NCBI GenBank assembly: GCA_902599315.1
Contig: CACKEY010000001.1
Span: 237,328 to 301,327 of the forward strand
DNA: 64,000 nucleotides
Reading direction: 5' to 3'
Source of the DNA: an uncultured SAR86 cluster bacterium
Lineage (GTDB): Bacteria; Pseudomonadota; Gammaproteobacteria; Magnimaribacterales; D2472
Part shown: piece after piece, positions 41,182-52,521 of the stretch
How the letters are laid out: the number at the start of each line of letters is the position of its first letter
How positions within the stretch are numbered: the stretch's first letter is position 1
Program-made: the position numbers and the translations under genes
Notes under the pieces: model-generated
What the model was told of the DNA's origin: nothing
The model's database searches: none
Seen by the model: only the letters and a program-made list of their open reading frames with translations

Positions 41182-41257
41182 GCCCAGATAGCTCAGTCGG
41201 TAGAGCAAAGGACTGAAAATCCTTGTGTCGGTGGTTCGATTCCACCTCTGGGCACCA
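41182..41257 (+). tRNA. tRNA-Phe (anticodon GAA)
   Basis: A complete cloverleaf of 76 bases can be folded. The acceptor GCCCAGA pairs with TCTGGGC, the D arm is GCTC/GAGC, the anticodon stem AAGGA/TCCTT holds loop CTGAAAA with anticodon GAA, and the T arm GGTGG/CCACC holds loop TTCGATT. The discriminator is A and the terminal CCA is encoded. All stems pair without mismatch. Confidence 0.97.
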
Positions 41258-41277: not shown

Positions 41278-43620
41278 TTGGATAAATTTAAAAAAATTTC
41301 GTTCTTCCTTTCACTTATCTTATTTATTAGCTGTAGCTCAGAAGATAAAAATTGGTATCCTTTTCCTAACTCATTCTTTGGTCAAACCTATACAGCAGGC
41401 CCAATCGCTTTAACAAGCAATTTAAATGAAAGAAACATTTGGCAAAATATAAACGAGTTAAATATAAGCCTTGCCAGGATGTCATACGTTATGCAGCTTG
41501 GAGTACCTGAAGTTAATATCGCATGGTTTCTTCAAGATGGAGCATGGCCAGATGAACCAAATTTTCAGTTTCGAAGACTAAATTCAAATTATCAAGAATC
41601 TGAAATTAGTAAACATATTAATTTAAATGGTTATACCTATGACAGGATAAGTGAGAAGAATCTTTTGTCGTCAAACATTTCTGGGAATAAATTAAATATT
41701 GGAAATGGCTCATATCAAGTTTTGCTTGTGACTAATTTAAAGCATACATCTCCAAGCATTTTGAGAAAGGTTCTAGCCCTTGCAGATGCAGGGCTGAAAG
41801 TAATATTCATAGGTGATTTTCCGCAACGCGCAACTGGGCTTACTAATTTTAAAATAAAAGACACGGAAATCGTTAGATATGTAGAAAAGATTTCTAAACT
41901 TGTGTTCCAACTTAACGATACACAAGATCTTGCAAATACTTTAAAGGACCTAAATATTGATCCATTAATAACTTTATTAGATAAAGATAAAAATTACTTT
42001 AGATCTGCCACTAGGTCATGTGGCTCACATAAAATTATTTATTTTTTTAATGATTCTTATGAGGTACAGAAAAAATTTTTTTATTTAAATAAATCTTTAA
42101 AGAATATAAAAATTCTTGATCCTTTTGACGGAGCAATAGATGAATTTTCATATCGAAATTTTGAGGAAAATTTAACAATATCAATAGAAGGAGGCAAAGC
42201 AAAAATATTAATTTTGAGTCAAAGAACAGACTCAAATAATAAAAATTGTTTTAAGGCTAATGAATGGATTAATCCAGACGAAAGATACTTTCCAATTTTA
42301 AGATGGTGGTGGCCTGGAAATGCAGTAGAAAAAGCTCAGATTCAAACAGAGCTACAGAAATTTAAAAAAGCTAAGTTTTCTTCGATTGAGCTGCAAACAT
42401 TGACAATTGGAATGCCAAAAAAATATTTAATGCAAAATAAAAATGAAATCTTTCAAGTGGGAGAACAACCCTTTTTTGATAATCTTAAATATCTATTTTC
42501 ACAGGCGAATGCTTTAAAATTGAATGTAGATCTTACTCTTGGAAGTGGTTGGTCGAGCGGAGGCCCATTTATTAAAGATTTTCCCGCACAGCAACTAATA
42601 AAATCTGAGTTAGAGATCATTGGGCCTGTAAGCGAAGTAATAAAACCTCCTAAAATTCAAGAGCCCAATTATGTAAGCAAAACAAATTTCATTGTAAATA
42701 AAACAATAGGTAACTTTGATCAGGATGTTGATTTAATGAGTGTGACTTTGGCTAAAGTTAAGCAATCACAAAAAAAAGATATTTTGACTGAGTTTATAGA
42801 TGTCAGCAATTTCTTAGATGATGATGGGTTGAAATTAGATATACCTGAAGGGAAACACAAATTGTTTTTTATATATCAGAATAATGTTTCTCATAATACC
42901 CTGGGTTCTGCATATAAGGGAGCATTGGATGAATCTTTAGTGTTAGACCATTTAAATAAAGGAGGCGTTGAGGAGTATATCGAGAAGCTTGGAAATAATT
43001 GGATAGAAAAAATTAAACCATATAAGCCAAGAAATTTTTTCATTGATAGTTTTGAGCTAATTGGTGAGTTACCTTGGTCAAAAAAGTTTTTTAAAACCTT
43101 TGAGGAGATGCATGGCTATAGTATTGCTCCATACCTACCGTTAATGTTTAAAAAGAATGGAGAATCAAAATACCTATATGCAATATTTGGTGAAGAGTTT
43201 TTATATCAATCAGAACATAGCCTTAGTGAGAGAGTATATGAGGATTATCTGTATACAAGAGAAAAGCTTTTTATGACTGAGTTTCTCCTGCCAATAAAAA
43301 ACTGGACCAACTCTTTAAATATTAAGCTAAGGCTCCAAGCTCATGGAGGATATGGCAACTATTTGGATGCATATGCCATTGCGGATATTCCTGAAAGCGA
43401 GGGTCTTTTTGCAGGCGGAAGTTTTGATTTCTTAAAATTAGCATCCTCAGCAGGAAATATTGCAAATAAAAAGATTGTTAGCTCAGAGTCGTTTATCAAA
43501 ATAGACTTTAATTACAATAAGTTAAAAATTGAAGATTATGAAAGGCTGGCTGGTAATGCATTCGCAGCGGGAATTAATCAGATAGTTTTTCACGGATATC
43601 CCTATAAGCTTTCATATTAG
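41278..43620 (+). CDS. GH106-like (alpha-L-rhamnosidase-type) glycoside hydrolase lipoprotein, C-terminally short
   Basis: The gene starts with TTG 41278, only 20 bases after the tRNA-Phe, and encodes 780 residues with a lipobox (SLILFISCSSED, Cys near 19). After about 330 residues of unfamiliar sequence comes a GH106-like region: RYFPILRWWWPGNAVEKAQIQTELQKFKKAKFSSIELQT, LTLGSGWSSGGPFI and FFIDSFELIGELPWSKKFFKTFEEMHGYSIAPYLPLMF. The frame ends at NQIVFHGYPYKLSY, where relatives normally continue with a C-terminal part. It may be truncated or a short form. Rhamnose-containing algal polysaccharides would be a plausible substrate. Confidence 0.72.
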   Translation: MDKFKKISFFLSLILFISCSSEDKNWYPFPNSFFGQTYTAGPIALTSNLNERNIWQNINELNISLARMSYVMQLGVPEVNIAWFLQDGAWPDEPNFQFRRLNSNYQESEISKHINLNGYTYDRISEKNLLSSNISGNKLNIGNGSYQVLLVTNLKHTSPSILRKVLALADAGLKVIFIGDFPQRATGLTNFKIKDTEIVRYVEKISKLVFQLNDTQDLANTLKDLNIDPLITLLDKDKNYFRSATRSCGSHKIIYFFNDSYEVQKKFFYLNKSLKNIKILDPFDGAIDEFSYRNFEENLTISIEGGKAKILILSQRTDSNNKNCFKANEWINPDERYFPILRWWWPGNAVEKAQIQTELQKFKKAKFSSIELQTLTIGMPKKYLMQNKNEIFQVGEQPFFDNLKYLFSQANALKLNVDLTLGSGWSSGGPFIKDFPAQQLIKSELEIIGPVSEVIKPPKIQEPNYVSKTNFIVNKTIGNFDQDVDLMSVTLAKVKQSQKKDILTEFIDVSNFLDDDGLKLDIPEGKHKLFFIYQNNVSHNTLGSAYKGALDESLVLDHLNKGGVEEYIEKLGNNWIEKIKPYKPRNFFIDSFELIGELPWSKKFFKTFEEMHGYSIAPYLPLMFKKNGESKYLYAIFGEEFLYQSEHSLSERVYEDYLYTREKLFMTEFLLPIKNWTNSLNIKLRLQAHGGYGNYLDAYAIADIPESEGLFAGGSFDFLKLASSAGNIANKKIVSSESFIKIDFNYNKLKIEDYERLAGNAFAAGINQIVFHGYPYKLSY

Positions 43621-43702
43621 TGAATAACATGAGAGAAAAGTAATTATGTGTAAATTTTATCTACAATATTGTAATTTTTTTTATAATTTTTTAACATAGA
43701 AG

Positions 43703-43762
43703 ATACGTTCATCCTAATTTATTCAAATTAGGACGGAAGTAGTCGAAAGACGAAGGAACGCA
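43703..43762 (+). ncRNA. Glutamine riboswitch aptamer 1 (glnA RNA motif)
   Basis: The conserved blocks of the glnA/Downstream-peptide motif occur in order: CGTTCATC (43706-43713), GGACGGAAGTAG (43731-43742) and GAAGGAACGC (43752-43761). P1 pairs CGTTC (43706-43710) with GAACG (43756-43760). P2 is an 8-bp perfect stem CCTAATTT (43713-43720) with AAATTAGG (43725-43732). P3 is GTC-GAAA-GAC (43742-43751). The three-way junction matches the L-glutamine-binding RNA. Confidence 0.9.
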
Positions 43763-43764
43763 TT

Positions 43765-43816
43765 ATCGTTCATCTCGAAAGAGACGGAAGTAGGTAATGA
43801 TACTGAAGGAACGCGT
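43765..43816 (+). ncRNA. Glutamine riboswitch aptamer 2 (tandem copy)
   Basis: A second complete set of conserved blocks follows six bases after the first P1: CGTTCATC (43767-43774), GACGGAAGTAGG (43783-43794) and GAAGGAACGC (43805-43814). P1 pairs CGTTC with GAACG (43809-43813), P2 is CTC-GAAA-GAG (43774-43783) and P3 is a short GTA-ATGA-TAC stem. Tandem aptamers suggest a steeper or cooperative response. About 50 bases further is the GGAGG of the small gene. Confidence 0.9.
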
Positions 43817-43875
43817 TGTTAATTGGTGTATATCGAAAGATATATTATTTTAATCGACGAAAACTGGAGGCTAAT

Positions 43876-44046
43876 ATGACTTCGTACTATAGAGGCATTA
43901 AAGTAACTCGCCAAAATAATACTAATCACAGTTCAGCTGTTGACAAAGTATTAAATTATAGAGGTGCTAAATACAATGCTTTAAAAATAAGCAAGTCAGC
44001 TAAACCATCAAGCGGTAATTATCGCGGTGTAAGCTGGTCAGCATAA
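43876..44046 (+). CDS. Small basic DUF4278-type protein with three YRG motifs
   Basis: ATG 43876 lies five bases after a strong GGAGG (43866-43870) and opens a 56-codon gene. The protein starts MTSYYRGIKV and carries YRG at residues 5-7, 28-30 and 49-51, each followed by a small hydrophobic residue. It has ten Lys/Arg and one acidic residue, so it is strongly basic. YRG repeats of this kind are found in DUF4278 proteins, mainly known from cyanobacteria and often placed behind glutamine riboswitches. The gene has its own leader and terminator. A role in nitrogen control is inferred from the riboswitch only. Confidence 0.85.
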   Translation: MTSYYRGIKVTRQNNTNHSSAVDKVLNYRGAKYNALKISKSAKPSSGNYRGVSWSA

Positions 44047-44060
44047 CTTATATTTAAGTT

Positions 44061-44092
44061 AAAAAAAGGAAGGTTATTACCTTCCTTTTTTT
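44061..44092 (+). terminator. Intrinsic terminator of the riboswitch-small protein transcript
   Basis: A 7-bp GC-containing stem GGAAGGT/ACCTTCC with loop TATT is extended by seven A-T pairs (AAAAAAA with TTTTTTT) and forms a run of T on the plus strand. It starts 15 bases after the DUF4278-type stop codon and closes a monocistronic unit. Confidence 0.9.
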
Positions 44093-44190
44093 ATTTAACA
44101 AACAAATTTTCATTTCGATAAACAAAAAGAAAAACGTAAATATTTAATCTCTGCTTTGAATATTAAAAATAAAAAGTTAAATTAAGAGTC

Positions 44191-44955
44191 ATGAAACCAG
44201 TATGTTTAGTTCTAGGAGCAGGCGCAGGCATTGGCGGGACTGTTGCAAAGAAGTTTGCCAAAGAAGGCTTCCATTCATGTTTGTGCAGAAGATCTGATCA
44301 AAAAGGATTAGATCAGCTTGTTTCTGATATAGAGCAGGAAGATGGATCAGCAACAGGTTATTTAATAAATGCAATTGAAGACAATGTCTTAGAAGAATTA
44401 ATTTTAAAAATTGAAAAAGACATTGGTCCTATTGAAGTCCTTGTCTACAATCTTGGCGCTCAAACAGGAATGAAGTTACTAAATGAAACATCTTTAAAAG
44501 AGTTTGAGTGGGGCTGGAGAATGGCAAATCTTGGGCTATTTAGAGTAGCAAAAGTTTTAATGCCAATTATGGAAGATAGGAATGCGGGAACATTTCTTGT
44601 AACTTCGGCGACAGCAGCAATGCGAGGCAATAAAAATCAGCACTCTCATGCTGCGGCCATGGGTGGAAGAAGGCTGTTGTGTCAAACTTTAAATGCAGAA
44701 TTTGCACCTAAGGGAATTCACATAGCACATATTGTCGTCGATGGCATGGTGGATGCTCCCGATACATTGGGAAAAATGCTCGGAAAAGAATTATTTCAAC
44801 AACTGCGTGAGACAAAAGGAATGGAACATGATGGCTTGATTTTGCCTACAAGCGTTGCAGATACTTACTACTATATATCTCAACAACATCGTTCTGCTTG
44901 GACACATGAAATTGATATCAGGGCTTTCTCAGATGTAGCTTGGTGGAATAGTTAG
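44191..44955 (+). CDS. SDR-family oxidoreductase lacking the YxxxK motif
   Basis: The 254-residue protein has the classical SDR cofactor motif CLVLGAGAGIGGTVAKKFAKEGF at residues 4-26 and the structural block LVYNLGAQTGMKLLNE (NxG) near 87. At the place of the catalytic S...YxxxK it reads VTSATAAMRGNKNQHSHAAAMGGRRLL: the Ser region is present, but Tyr and Lys are replaced (His/Met by alignment by eye). It may therefore be a non-catalytic or unusual SDR. The end overlaps the convergent GH16 gene by four bases. Confidence 0.8.
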   Translation: MKPVCLVLGAGAGIGGTVAKKFAKEGFHSCLCRRSDQKGLDQLVSDIEQEDGSATGYLINAIEDNVLEELILKIEKDIGPIEVLVYNLGAQTGMKLLNETSLKEFEWGWRMANLGLFRVAKVLMPIMEDRNAGTFLVTSATAAMRGNKNQHSHAAAMGGRRLLCQTLNAEFAPKGIHIAHIVVDGMVDAPDTLGKMLGKELFQQLRETKGMEHDGLILPTSVADTYYYISQQHRSAWTHEIDIRAFSDVAWWNS

Positions 44956-48756: not shown

Positions 48757-49008
48757 ATGAAAGAAGTAACTATCTTCACAACAAAAACTTGCCCATACTG
48801 CTATAAAGCCAAAAGATTATTAAAAAAATTAAATATTGTTTACAAAGAAATTTCTGTTGATTTTAATCCTAAGCTAAGAGCAGAAATGGCTGCAAAAGCT
48901 GGAAAAACATCTGTTCCTCAAATTTGGTTTGGTGATAATCACATTGGAGGCTGTGATGATTTACATCATCTTCACCAAGCTACAAATTTATTAGAGGCTT
49001 TGCGTTAA
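48757..49008 (+). CDS. grxC: Glutaredoxin 3
   Basis: The 83-residue protein has the dithiol active site CPYC at residues 12-15 (FTTKTCPYCYKAKRLLKKL), the cis-proline in KTSVPQIWFGDNHIGGCDDLHHLH near residue 52, and the GG glutathione-binding turn. It reduces disulfides and mixed glutathione disulfides in the cytoplasm. It overlaps the end of the convergent ntrC gene by four bases. The length matches E. coli GrxC (83). Confidence 0.95.
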   Translation: MKEVTIFTTKTCPYCYKAKRLLKKLNIVYKEISVDFNPKLRAEMAAKAGKTSVPQIWFGDNHIGGCDDLHHLHQATNLLEALR

Positions 49009-50393
49009 GCTTTTTGAGCTTTTATTTTTTTTGAGAGAGTATTTCTTCCCATACCCAAGACTTTAGCTGCATCCTGCTTTTTTCCGCCTGCTTTTTCTAG
49101 AGCAAAATCAATAATTACTTTATCTAATTCTGGTTCAATAATTTCGAGCATATTCTCTGCATTGCTTTGATAGATTTCACCCAGCCAATTAGATAATCCT
49201 GATTGCCAATTTTCATTTTCAGCTTTTACAGGTTGATCATTATTTTTAATTTCAGCAGGAAGGTCTTCTATATTTACATTTTGAGTAGGAGCCATAAGAG
49301 CAATCCAATAACAGGTATTTTCTAATTGTCTAACATTTCCTGGCCAATTATATTGTGTGAGAGCAAGAAGGGCTTCTGGAGATAGTAACTTTTGATCATC
49401 CATCAAAGAATCTGCATGTCTTTTTAAAAAAGCAGAGGATAGTTCGCCAATATCTTCTTTTCTTTGTCTTAGTGGAGGCACATCAATTCTAATAACATTT
49501 AATCTATAGTAAAGGTCTTCTCTAAATGTACCAGATGCAACTAGTGATTCTAGGCTCTGATGTGTGGCAGCCAAGATTCGTACATCTACCTTGATAGGCT
49601 TGTCTCCGCCAACTCTAAAAAATTCTTTATTAGACAAGACTCTTAATAAACGTGTTTGAGTCTCAAGAGGCATGTCTCCAATTTCATCAAGGAAAAGAGT
49701 TCCACCATTTGCTTGCTCAAATCTGCCAATTCTTTGTTCTACAGCACCAGTGAAAGCTCCTTTTTCATGCCCAAATAATTCTGACTCAATTAGCTCCTTA
49801 GGAATATCTGCCATGTTTAATGCTATGAAGGGCATGTCATGCCTTGGACTATTTTTATGCAATGATTTGGAAACTAATTCTTTCCCTGTTCCGGACTCAC
49901 CTTGTATTAGAACAGTAGCATTGGTGTTAGCAAGTTTACCAATTGATCTAAAAACAAGTTGCATTGAAGGAGCCGAACCAATGATTTCTGACTTAGAAAC
50001 TTTTTTTGGCTTAGTTTCTTTATGCTCCTCTAGAGCTTTTTGCACTGTAATTATAGCTTCCTCAAGATCAAAGGGCTTTGGTATGTATTCGAAAGCACCA
50101 CCTCCATAAGAATCAATTGCAGCTTGCATGTCGGTAAAAGCAGTCATAATTATTACTGGTAGTTTTTCATAATTATTCTTAATGTGTTTTAAAAGATCAT
50201 AACCATGCATGCCAGGCATTTTTATATCTGAAATAATGAGATCTGGCTTATCTATATTTAAAGCATCTATTAATGATTGGCCATCAGAAAATGTCTTTAT
50301 TTCAAGGCCATCTCTACTCAGACCTTCTTCGAGTACAATTCGAATAGCTTCATCATCATCAGCTATCCATACTTTAGGCACTTTGAGCTCCAT
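49005..50393 (-). CDS. ntrC: Nitrogen regulation response regulator NtrC
   Basis: The 462-residue protein has a receiver domain with the phosphorylated Asp near residue 56 (LIISDIKMPGMHGYDLL). A sigma-54 AAA+ domain follows, with Walker A GESGTGKE near 163 and the sigma-54-contact loop GAFTGA near 216. The C-terminal Fis-type HTH is GGKKQDAAKVLGMGRNTLSKKI. In the same operon as NtrB and next to glnII it is the nitrogen regulator and not another NtrC-family activator. It would act at the sigma-54 promoter at 52569-52585. Its start overlaps the end of ntrB by 20 bases. Confidence 0.94.
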   Translation of the reverse strand: MELKVPKVWIADDDEAIRIVLEEGLSRDGLEIKTFSDGQSLIDALNIDKPDLIISDIKMPGMHGYDLLKHIKNNYEKLPVIIMTAFTDMQAAIDSYGGGAFEYIPKPFDLEEAIITVQKALEEHKETKPKKVSKSEIIGSAPSMQLVFRSIGKLANTNATVLIQGESGTGKELVSKSLHKNSPRHDMPFIALNMADIPKELIESELFGHEKGAFTGAVEQRIGRFEQANGGTLFLDEIGDMPLETQTRLLRVLSNKEFFRVGGDKPIKVDVRILAATHQSLESLVASGTFREDLYYRLNVIRIDVPPLRQRKEDIGELSSAFLKRHADSLMDDQKLLSPEALLALTQYNWPGNVRQLENTCYWIALMAPTQNVNIEDLPAEIKNNDQPVKAENENWQSGLSNWLGEIYQSNAENMLEIIEPELDKVIIDFALEKAGGKKQDAAKVLGMGRNTLSKKIKAQKA

Positions 50394-51462
50394 CTATGTT
50401 ATTACTGGAAATAGGTATTAAAATTGAAAATATCGTTTGATCATCTTTGCGATCAAAGGATATTGCACCTCCATGAATTCTTACAATGTCTTGAGATATT
50501 GAAAGCCCAATTCCTGATCCATTTTCTTTACCTGATATCATCGGGAAGAAAATTTGATCTTTAATTTCTGAGCTAACCCCAGGCCCATTATCTCTGACAA
50601 TAATTTCAGCTAGCGTTTTGTGGACGGTTCCATTGATTGGTTGTCGGTATGAAATTTTAGTTTGAATTCGAAGACAAGGTTTTTCTGAAAAGTTTGTGCA
50701 GGCATGAATGGCATTTTGAGTAATATTAATAAGAGCTTGAATAAATAAATTTTTGTCTCCATAAATTTCAGGAATGCTTGGATCATAGTCTCTTTCAATC
50801 ATTAAATTTTCTTGAGATTCGGCATTGCTTAATGCTAATACTCGCTGCAAAGATTCATGAAGATTAAAATATTCAAAAGTTGGTTTTTTTGCGGGAGTTA
50901 ATATTCTGGTAACAATCTCATTAAGCCTATCAGTTTCTTCTTCAATAATTTTTAGAAACTTTTTTGAAAAATCGTCTTCATATTTAGACTTTAAAATTTG
51001 AGCACTTCCTTTAATTCCTGATAATGGGTTTTTTACTTCGTGTGCAAGAGTTCTTGCTAAACCAGCAGCTATTTTTTGAGTTGAAAAATTTCTTGTAGAG
51101 TCAATAATCTTATTTAGGTTATCAATATTAACTGCTTCAATAAATATAAGATTTTTCTTATCTGAGAAAGTTATTGTAAGGTCAATTGTCCTTGAGTCAC
51201 CAGATTGATAAACAACTTCAAAATCTCTTCTTGTAACTGATCCAGAACCCTTTCTTGTTTTTTGAAGTATTTGCTCAATTTGGTACTTAGTTTGTTTATT
51301 CAATAATGAAGAAATTTTTTTACCGCTAAGTTTTGATGAATCATCAGTCCAATATGCTGCTTTTGCAGCTTCATTCATCCACAATAAGTCTAAATTATCT
51401 CCATCCAAGATAATAATTTCAGTATTTAAGTTATCAAATGCTTCAAAGCTAGAAAGGTTCAT
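50374..51462 (-). CDS. ntrB: Nitrogen regulation sensor histidine kinase NtrB (GlnL)
   Basis: The 362-residue kinase has an N-terminal PAS domain (residues about 10-115) and no membrane segment. The HisKA box LARTLAHEVKNPLSGIKGSAQIL places His near 141. The ATPase N box is at INITQNAIHA and the G boxes at VRDNGPGVSSEIKDQIFFPMISGKENGSGIGLSIS. NtrB is controlled by the PII protein GlnB and phosphorylates NtrC when glutamine is low. No glnB is in the window. It lies between glnII and ntrC, 78 bases after glnII, with a weak terminator between that may lower basal ntrBC expression. Confidence 0.94.
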   Translation of the reverse strand: MNLSSFEAFDNLNTEIIILDGDNLDLLWMNEAAKAAYWTDDSSKLSGKKISSLLNKQTKYQIEQILQKTRKGSGSVTRRDFEVVYQSGDSRTIDLTITFSDKKNLIFIEAVNIDNLNKIIDSTRNFSTQKIAAGLARTLAHEVKNPLSGIKGSAQILKSKYEDDFSKKFLKIIEEETDRLNEIVTRILTPAKKPTFEYFNLHESLQRVLALSNAESQENLMIERDYDPSIPEIYGDKNLFIQALINITQNAIHACTNFSEKPCLRIQTKISYRQPINGTVHKTLAEIIVRDNGPGVSSEIKDQIFFPMISGKENGSGIGLSISQDIVRIHGGAISFDRKDDQTIFSILIPISSNNIDGAQSA

Positions 51463-51540: not shown

Positions 51541-52521
51541 CTATTTTGTGAGAGTTCCAACAATGTGAGCTAAAATTTTATACGGGTCAGCATTTGAAGC
51601 AGGCCTTCTGTCTTCTAAGTAACCGTTCCAGTTATGCTCAACTGTATATACTGGAATCCTTATACTAGCTCCTCGATCACTTACTCCATATGAGAATTGA
51701 TCAATGCTTTGAGTTTCATGGAGGCCTGTCAACCTCATATCATTGTCAGAGCCATAGGCAGCAATTCCTTCTTCATGAACAGCACCAAGCTTGTCACACA
51801 ATGAAGAAAATAATTCTTCTGAGCCTTTGGATCTCATTTCTTCATTTGAAAAGTTAGTATGCATTCCTGAACCATTCCAATCACCAGTTTTTGGTTTAGG
51901 ATGAATGTTTACACCAACTCCGTATTCTTCTGCAATTTTATATAGAAGATATCTGCTAATCCAAAGATCATCAGCTGCTTTTATTCCAGTACCAAAACAT
52001 TGATATTCCCACTGACCAAGTGCAACTTCTGCATTTGTACCCGTTAGTGTGATTCCTAAGTCAAGACAAGCCTGAAGATGATGGTCAGAAATTTCTCTGC
52101 CAACAACATTACCAGCTCCAACACCACAATAGAATTCGCCTTGTGCTCTCGGCTCTCCATTTTCCCATCCAAGAGGCTCGCCAGTTTCAGGATCAGTAAA
52201 GAAAAATTCTTGCTCAAATCCAAACCACCATTCATCTGTGACGACTTCAGCGGCAGCTGCTCTAAAATTTGATGGATGAGTTGTATGATCAGCTGATTGG
52301 ACTTGAGTCATTACTAAATCATGACCGTTTGGATTTTCGTAAGTTTCAACTGGAAGAAGTAGGCAGTCTGAGCTTCCACCTTCGGCTTGTTGTGTTGATG
52401 AACCATCAAAGGACCAATCAGGAGGAGTATCTGCATCTGTTGCTTTAACTTTGCTCCTCATAAATGGCTCTGGTTGATAACCATCAAGCCAAATGTATTC
52501 ATATGTTTTATATTTTGACAT
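51541..52521 (-). CDS. glnII: Glutamine synthetase type II (GSII, eukaryote-like)
   Basis: The 326-residue enzyme begins MSKYKTYEYIWLDGYQPEPFMRSKVKATDADTPPDWSFDGSSTQQAEGGSSDC, the beginning typical of GlnII and plant/animal GS and not of 470-residue bacterial GSI. Active-site blocks are WWFGFEQEFFFTDPETGEPLGW, GQWEYQCFGTG, KTGDWNGSGMHTNFSNEEMR and RRPASNADPY. The GSI adenylylation tyrosine region is absent. It makes glutamine from glutamate, ATP and ammonium. Upstream are a sigma-54 promoter and two NtrC-type palindromes. No GSI gene is seen in this window. Confidence 0.95.
   Translation of the reverse strand: MSKYKTYEYIWLDGYQPEPFMRSKVKATDADTPPDWSFDGSSTQQAEGGSSDCLLLPVETYENPNGHDLVMTQVQSADHTTHPSNFRAAAAEVVTDEWWFGFEQEFFFTDPETGEPLGWENGEPRAQGEFYCGVGAGNVVGREISDHHLQACLDLGITLTGTNAEVALGQWEYQCFGTGIKAADDLWISRYLLYKIAEEYGVGVNIHPKPKTGDWNGSGMHTNFSNEEMRSKGSEELFSSLCDKLGAVHEEGIAAYGSDNDMRLTGLHETQSIDQFSYGVSDRGASIRIPVYTVEHNWNGYLEDRRPASNADPYKILAHIVGTLTK

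Follow-up and report, generated by a model that had tools for sequence, protein, structure and literature searches.

The window, by which we mean the whole stretch of 64,000 nucleotides analysed here, is part of a 647-kb contig in a 1.44-Mb genome. It carries a compact cassette in which two consecutive glutamine riboswitch aptamers precede one small gene, set between a gene for a GH106-like protein and a short-chain dehydrogenase (SDR) gene; a group of nitrogen genes lies farther along on the opposite strand.

41278..43620, + strand: GH106-like protein, upstream neighbour (Pfam)
43621..44095, + strand: whole cassette, boundaries approximate; in genomes G000, G015 and G016, missing at the GH106-SDR site in G023 and G014
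43660..43687, + strand: promoter-like hexamers TCTACA-16-TATAAT, 10/12 matches, ~16 bases 5′ of aptamer 1
43704..43764, + strand: glutamine riboswitch aptamer 1 (RF01739), cmscan 63.5 bits, E 1.1e-12, model 1-53
43765..43817, + strand: glutamine riboswitch aptamer 2 (RF01739), cmscan 59.9 bits, E 1.1e-11, model 1-53
43814..43859, + strand: platform helix CGUUG/CGACG enclosing a hairpin at 43828-43845 (nine-leader alignment)
43866..43870, + strand: Shine-Dalgarno sequence GGAGG (read from the sequence)
43876..44046, + strand: 56-aa DUF4278 (PF14105) protein with three YRG motifs, Pfam 29.3 bits
44064..44092, + strand: intrinsic terminator AAAAGGAAGG-TTATTA-CCTTCCTTTT(TTT), GGAAGG-TTATTA-CCTTCC-U7 (by eye)
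44191..44955, + strand: short-chain dehydrogenase, downstream neighbour (Pfam)
49005-50393, − strand: ntrC-like gene beside glutamine synthetase, named from its translation
50374-51462, − strand: ntrB-like gene beside glutamine synthetase, named from its translation
51541..52521, − strand: glutamine synthetase, 326 aa, the only match in the genome; it lacks a riboswitch and lies 7.5 kb from the cassette

Assignment of the leader to the glutamine riboswitch class is secure on the evidence of its sequence. A covariance-model search of Rfam gave significant matches to RF01739 for both copies, each over the full model and above the gathering score of 35 bits, with P1, P2, P3 and the conserved core blocks complete in both and six bases between the two cores. 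This is the arrangement that the original prediction had described, and the conserved blocks that it quoted are found where it had placed them. It had also spoken of a glnA/Downstream-peptide RNA; the glnA half of that label stands, and the Downstream-peptide (Glutamine-II, RF01704) half falls, at 17.4 bits against a cut-off of 33. The aptamers presumably bind L-glutamine. Aptamer 2 ends 58 bases before the ATG of the DUF4278 gene on the same strand, placing the tandem in the 5′ leader, and a genome search found no RF01739 match besides these two.

The gene behind the leader belongs, as anticipated, to the DUF4278 type: the domain spans residues 1-53 of a strongly basic product (pI 10.4), with a score above the Pfam cut-off of 25.3 bits. 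The GGAGG sequence, the 56-codon frame with its three YRG motifs and the terminator were likewise confirmed; the last is known from reading by eye and is absent from the output of our signal scan of the region. The terminator is near-identical in G088, a genome of another genus, and terminator-like hairpins also follow those genes with readable 3′ ends that stand behind the insert-type leaders described below. The promoter signal is weak: the region has four promoter-like sites, and 2.6 would be expected from shuffled sequence. Pfam found DUF4278 at E 0.01 in all ten proteins of set A2, and a search for a solved structure of the domain gave a single, insignificant match (E 0.79). PirA was considered as a relative of DUF4278 and set aside, the word DUF4278 being missing from the available part of the PirA paper.

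The host is a gammaproteobacterium, as the original prediction held, and more precisely a member of SAR86, since a 96%-identical protein occurs in SAR86 records AG-325-G09 and AG-337-O06 (probably our G015 and G016); we extend the name SAR86 to the whole order from these records of the window's genus. The length of the contig (647 kb) and the shared gene neighbours at this site in relatives rule out contamination by a cyanobacterial contig. A search for the downstream dehydrogenase succeeded in 21 of the 26 genomes of the genus, and in five of these a GH106-like gene adjoins it; G000, G015 and G016 carry the cassette between the two genes, and G023 and G014 do not. This presence and absence at one site indicates that leader, gene and terminator, about 475 bases, form one block, which bears out the notion of a single-gene switch. 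DUF4278 is present in three of the 26 genomes, exactly those with the tandem riboswitch, and aptamer cores, platform and gene are almost unchanged across them. The same block occurs in G088, with a leader 87.9% identical, just 5′ of a GH106 homologue; the GH106-like gene (L056) thus adjoins the cassette on its 5′ side in one genus and on its 3′ side in another. Separately, a weak match to the Plastid-ycf2 model at 41182-41255 of the window (− strand; 30.2 against 65.7 bits) runs antisense to a tRNA gene and is an artefact.

Directly 3′ of aptamer P1 is a platform helix whose 3′ arm ends six bases before the Shine-Dalgarno sequence. In an alignment of nine leaders (the window, G088 and seven of the insert type), with the structure as named by the analyst, 96.5% of cells were paired; both-side changes affect three pairs of the inner hairpin, where 1.8 are expected in shuffles, and none of the outer helix. 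The covariation score was 0.293; shuffles gave 0.174, and sliding the structure gave no more than 0.115. Further pair types numbered seven, below the 8.6 in shuffles. A U-tract is missing 3′ of the platform hairpin in G088 and in the leaders of the insert type, which suggests that control is translational rather than by termination; in the window the AU-rich hairpin is followed by UUAUUUU, and weak termination in this leader alone is conceivable. Folding calculations gave results for ten leaders: when P1 was forced, accessibility of the Shine-Dalgarno sequence rose relative to free folding in three, clearly only in L096, and fell slightly or more in seven, the window going from 0.30 to 0.24. 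With no common direction among the ten, thermodynamics lends the switching step no support. In the SAR86 leaders P1 could also pair with an AACGA located 5′ of the Shine-Dalgarno sequence, but the viral leaders read lack AACGA, and we place no weight on this pairing.

Beyond this locus, RF01739 is matched in 17 of the 26 genomes of the genus and, across the order, in 95 of 203 genomes (81 over the cut-off), spanning 13 of 22 genera with up to seven copies per genome. Samples of the class and the phylum gave four matching genomes in 369 (three from the window's order, the fourth being G486) and one in 398 (the window's own), in searches that, like all those over more than 40 genomes, used stricter filters at which weak matches are lost. 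G486, a gammaproteobacterium of another order with 1.1 Mb, has one riboswitch before a gltB-like gene and one before a gltD-like gene (loci L251 and L254), each of the two being followed by repeats that may form alternative hairpins.

In the order, target genes were taken from selected stretches and from the right strand only. Among them are two kinds of glutamine synthetase (L027, L036), glutamate synthase in genus g12 (L042/L071, L091), Gcw_chp proteins (Pfam), proteins whose sequences we read as TonB-receptor-like, a DUF4177-like protein at 24.6 bits, just below its cut-off of 25, and, behind single riboswitches in genera g7, g8 and g9, circularly permuted ATP-grasp genes (Pfam; L065, L067-L070). 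Two candidates with Pfam matches, a gltB-like ORF at L026 and a permease at L054, were discarded because the riboswitch is on the other strand; in genus g22 (L026, L040, L053) the gltB-like genes are divergent from the riboswitch-led gene and not 3′ of the riboswitch. The riboswitches also lead tiny proteins (L057-L064, L066, L072-L075), many of which end in FFPYYL (L061 being an exception) or DNPFYP, the latter ending recurring in viral L202, L232 and L250 behind glutamine riboswitches; one of the tiny proteins, of 54 aa, has no Pfam match.

DUF4278 leaders of other genera have a different architecture. Within the order, Pfam detects the domain in 23 of 203 genomes (11 of them above the cut-off), an undercount that misses G088 and others. 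Fifteen DUF4278 leaders from other genera score 38.5-48.4 bits with RF01739, lower than the window aptamers owing to an insert in P3. A pattern for this conserved insert of 55-80 nucleotides was found in 37 of the 203 genomes and seven of the 22 genera, including 7/7 genomes of g11 and 8/9 of g12; the reversed pattern was found in none. The gene 3′ of the insert was read in 34 of the 37 (all except G037, G169 and G175) and is DUF4278-like in each, 32 being whole ORFs with at least two YRG-type motifs and two (G033, G035) the start of an ORF only. Nested P3 domains occur at L096, L098-L113, L295-L310 and L114-L130, loci of SAR86 genomes and of T4-like viral contigs, with a DUF4278-like gene 3′ wherever read. 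In G156, a genome with DUF4278, the 2.1-kb locus contains no riboswitch match.

Rfam gave no match for the insert itself, neither in L112 (best other match E 0.15) nor in 14 others at E 0.1. Its first hairpin and aptamer P2 hold across 17 distinct bacterial and viral sequences: for the named structure as a whole, 94.7% of cells are paired and 12 of 25 pairs changed on both sides, compared with a mean of 6.3 in shuffles and at most four when the structure was slid, with 18 further pair types against 15.8. P3 is weaker in this alignment (79.6% paired, three of seven pairs changed on both sides), partly owing to its variable length. Inside the insert, GAACGA is able to pair with UCGUUC, which consists of the 5′ strand of P1 and a flanking U; of the six pairs of this decoy, five are invariant in 17/17, so that they lie beyond a covariation test, and the sixth holds in 16 and breaks in one. 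In our reading of the letters, the insert resembles the 3′ half of the aptamer, with AAGUA, a CC/GG hairpin and GAACGA. It is tempting to speculate that such a leader is a two-sensor RNA in which a second, aptamer-like domain in P3, perhaps an internal duplication, steals P1 through GAACGA, so that a second ligand or DUF4278 itself would veto or license glutamine sensing, with the window's tandem as a two-aptamer alternative; this is a tentative idea, and we would sooner doubt it than adopt it.

The insert-type leader is shared with viruses. Its pattern occurs in 17 IMG/VR contigs, probably marine, and a YRG (DUF4278-like) ORF comes next in 17/17; a gp23-like ORF ends 117-154 bases before the pattern in ten of them, and both kinds of this gp23-like protein match the PHROG major head protein. 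Plain glutamine riboswitches are present in at least 120 viral contigs, with an ORF bearing two YRG-like motifs behind the riboswitch in 13/120 among the viral matches listed. Searches of phage records with the window protein and viral DUF4278 (tblastn) gave no match, where a low-complexity filter may matter, and searches with the leaders (blastn) gave weak partial matches only.

As to what the protein might act on, glutamine synthetase lies close by, beside the ntrB-like and ntrC-like genes, and we take it to be of another type than the cyanobacterial enzyme. PII was found in 25 and glutamine synthetase in 20 of the 26 genomes of the genus, most of them incomplete. GlnE was found in none of these 26, by a search that detects it in three control genomes, and the genus therefore probably cannot adenylylate its glutamine synthetase. 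A small protein that restrains nitrogen assimilation at high glutamine would fit such a setting. The DUF4278-bearing N-terminus of cyanobacterial IF17 is described as dispensable for IF17 function (PMC6316151, in excerpt), which makes glutamine synthetase as the target of DUF4278 a guess; with 56 residues, DUF4278 alone and no longer protein, the window product is not an IF17 and at most IF-like.

We propose that the locus is a glutamine-activated, translational tandem riboswitch of the glnA type that controls one nitrogen-status DUF4278 protein in SAR86, and we put the probability of this reading at about 0.66. When glutamine is high and the cell nitrogen replete, both aptamers would close, the ribosome-binding site would be free and DUF4278 would be translated, the two aptamers making the response steeper; the protein may then bind a partner, possibly the glutamine synthetase encoded 7.5 kb from the cassette, and in this way hold nitrogen assimilation back. 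Binding of the ligand, the sign of the switch and the role of the protein are putative in this scheme, and they lean on several parallels. DUF4278 genes are the main associates of glutamine aptamers in cyanobacterial genomes, IF17 synthesis is under glutamine riboswitch control, and PMM1846, a small DUF4278 gene, is boosted by a glutamine riboswitch in nitrogen excess (all PMC6316151, in excerpt); pseudo-cooperativity through tandem copies is an established design among glutamine riboswitches (PMC9481103, in excerpt). We also count in its favor that one platform is common to the tandem and insert-type DUF4278 leaders, that the block is present or absent at a single site, and that riboswitches elsewhere in the order precede nitrogen genes. 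The restriction of the cassette to three of the 26 genomes of the genus weighs against it.

The sign could be the reverse, with glutamine lowering expression of a DUF4278 protein that is useful in nitrogen shortage. Glutamine synthetase and glutamate synthase are normally wanted when nitrogen is short, and the same aptamers precede genes for both in the order, so that an OFF switch is possible there; the folding model, too, gives the ON sign no preference. However, the platforms of the glutamine synthetase leaders read differ from that of the DUF4278 leaders. The sign may thus differ by gene, and the glutamine synthetase and glutamate synthase leaders may behave otherwise than the DUF4278 leader. 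It is from the reported rise of a cyanobacterial DUF4278 gene and of IF17 with glutamine or nitrogen (PMC6316151, in excerpt) that we assign the ON sign, and we consider the reverse rather unlikely for the window.

A stronger challenge to our proposal is that the cassette is mobile first, a unit of T4-like phages, cyanobacteria and SAR86 that is phage-derived in SAR86 and serves the phage or no one. The viral contigs speak for this, in that all 17 matching contigs pair the insert-type leader with a DUF4278-like gene, ten of them shortly after a gp23-like gene, and 13 of 120 further viral riboswitch sites among the matches listed have ORFs with two YRG-like motifs behind them; the presence or absence of the cassette at the GH106-SDR site and its patchiness in the genus (3/26) point the same way. 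Yet insert-type leaders in nearly all genomes of g11 and g12 look long-standing, and the leaders are intact, with compensatory changes. Proteins of about 55 residues hold little phylogenetic signal on this question, and we regard a primarily mobile cassette as a substantial possibility, though not the favored one. That the locus is a decayed or chance resemblance without function can be given almost no credence: E-values of 1e-11 to 1e-12, the cassette in three genomes of the genus and the single genome matched in the phylum sample of 398 argue against chance, and the three genomes hardly differ in aptamer cores, platform and gene.

Both the RNA and the gene in the window are, by their sequences, members of known families. 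The cyanobacterial type-1 riboswitch (RF01739), which occurs with DUF4278 and gifB (IF17), is of the same aptamer class, is known in tandem and has a DUF4278 target; in contrast, the SAR86 host is a heterotrophic gammaproteobacterium, and other genera of its order have the domain nested in P3. The type-2 riboswitch (Downstream-peptide, RF01704) of marine picocyanobacteria likewise has a small DUF4278 target and multiple copies (PMC6316151, in excerpt), but belongs to another family by the scores given above. In phages of streamlined marine heterotrophs glutamine riboswitches are already known, from the OM43 phage Melnitz and pelagimyophages, tied there to a tmRNA gene, unlike the SAR86 cassette; the riboswitch is not found in the OM43-related host genomes named in that paper, and DUF4278 goes unmentioned in the available part of its text (PMC9004378, in excerpt). 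According to the available portion of a 2018 review, glutamine riboswitches are restricted but common to cyanobacteria (PMC6316151); later papers add phages. No report of a glutamine riboswitch in SAR86 or gammaproteobacteria was found in titles and abstract openings of the open-licence literature, and a report elsewhere is possible. As far as our searches show, what is new is the nested form, together with the lineage of the host and the wide spread of the switch in that lineage.

Environmental glnA RNAs were found before PII, glutamine synthetase, glutamate synthase and ammonium transporter genes (Weinberg 2010, PMC2864571, in excerpt), and the associations with glutamine synthetase, PII and transporters appear restricted to environmental samples and hence to uncultured strains (PMC6316151, in excerpt). 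The order shares the glutamine synthetase and glutamate synthase targets, whereas PII and Amt genes were not among the targets at the sites read. Set beside the 2010 RNAs by target genes, SAR86 is a good candidate for their source, and its spread of riboswitches offers an owner for these orphan RNAs. It also points to a system by which an ocean heterotroph, represented here by uncultured genomes alone, may sense nitrogen. Occurring in bacteria and viruses alike and linked to a single small gene, the nested P3 domain is a candidate new RNA sensor, and DUF4278 becomes testable as a nitrogen-status protein of cyanobacteria, SAR86 and phages.
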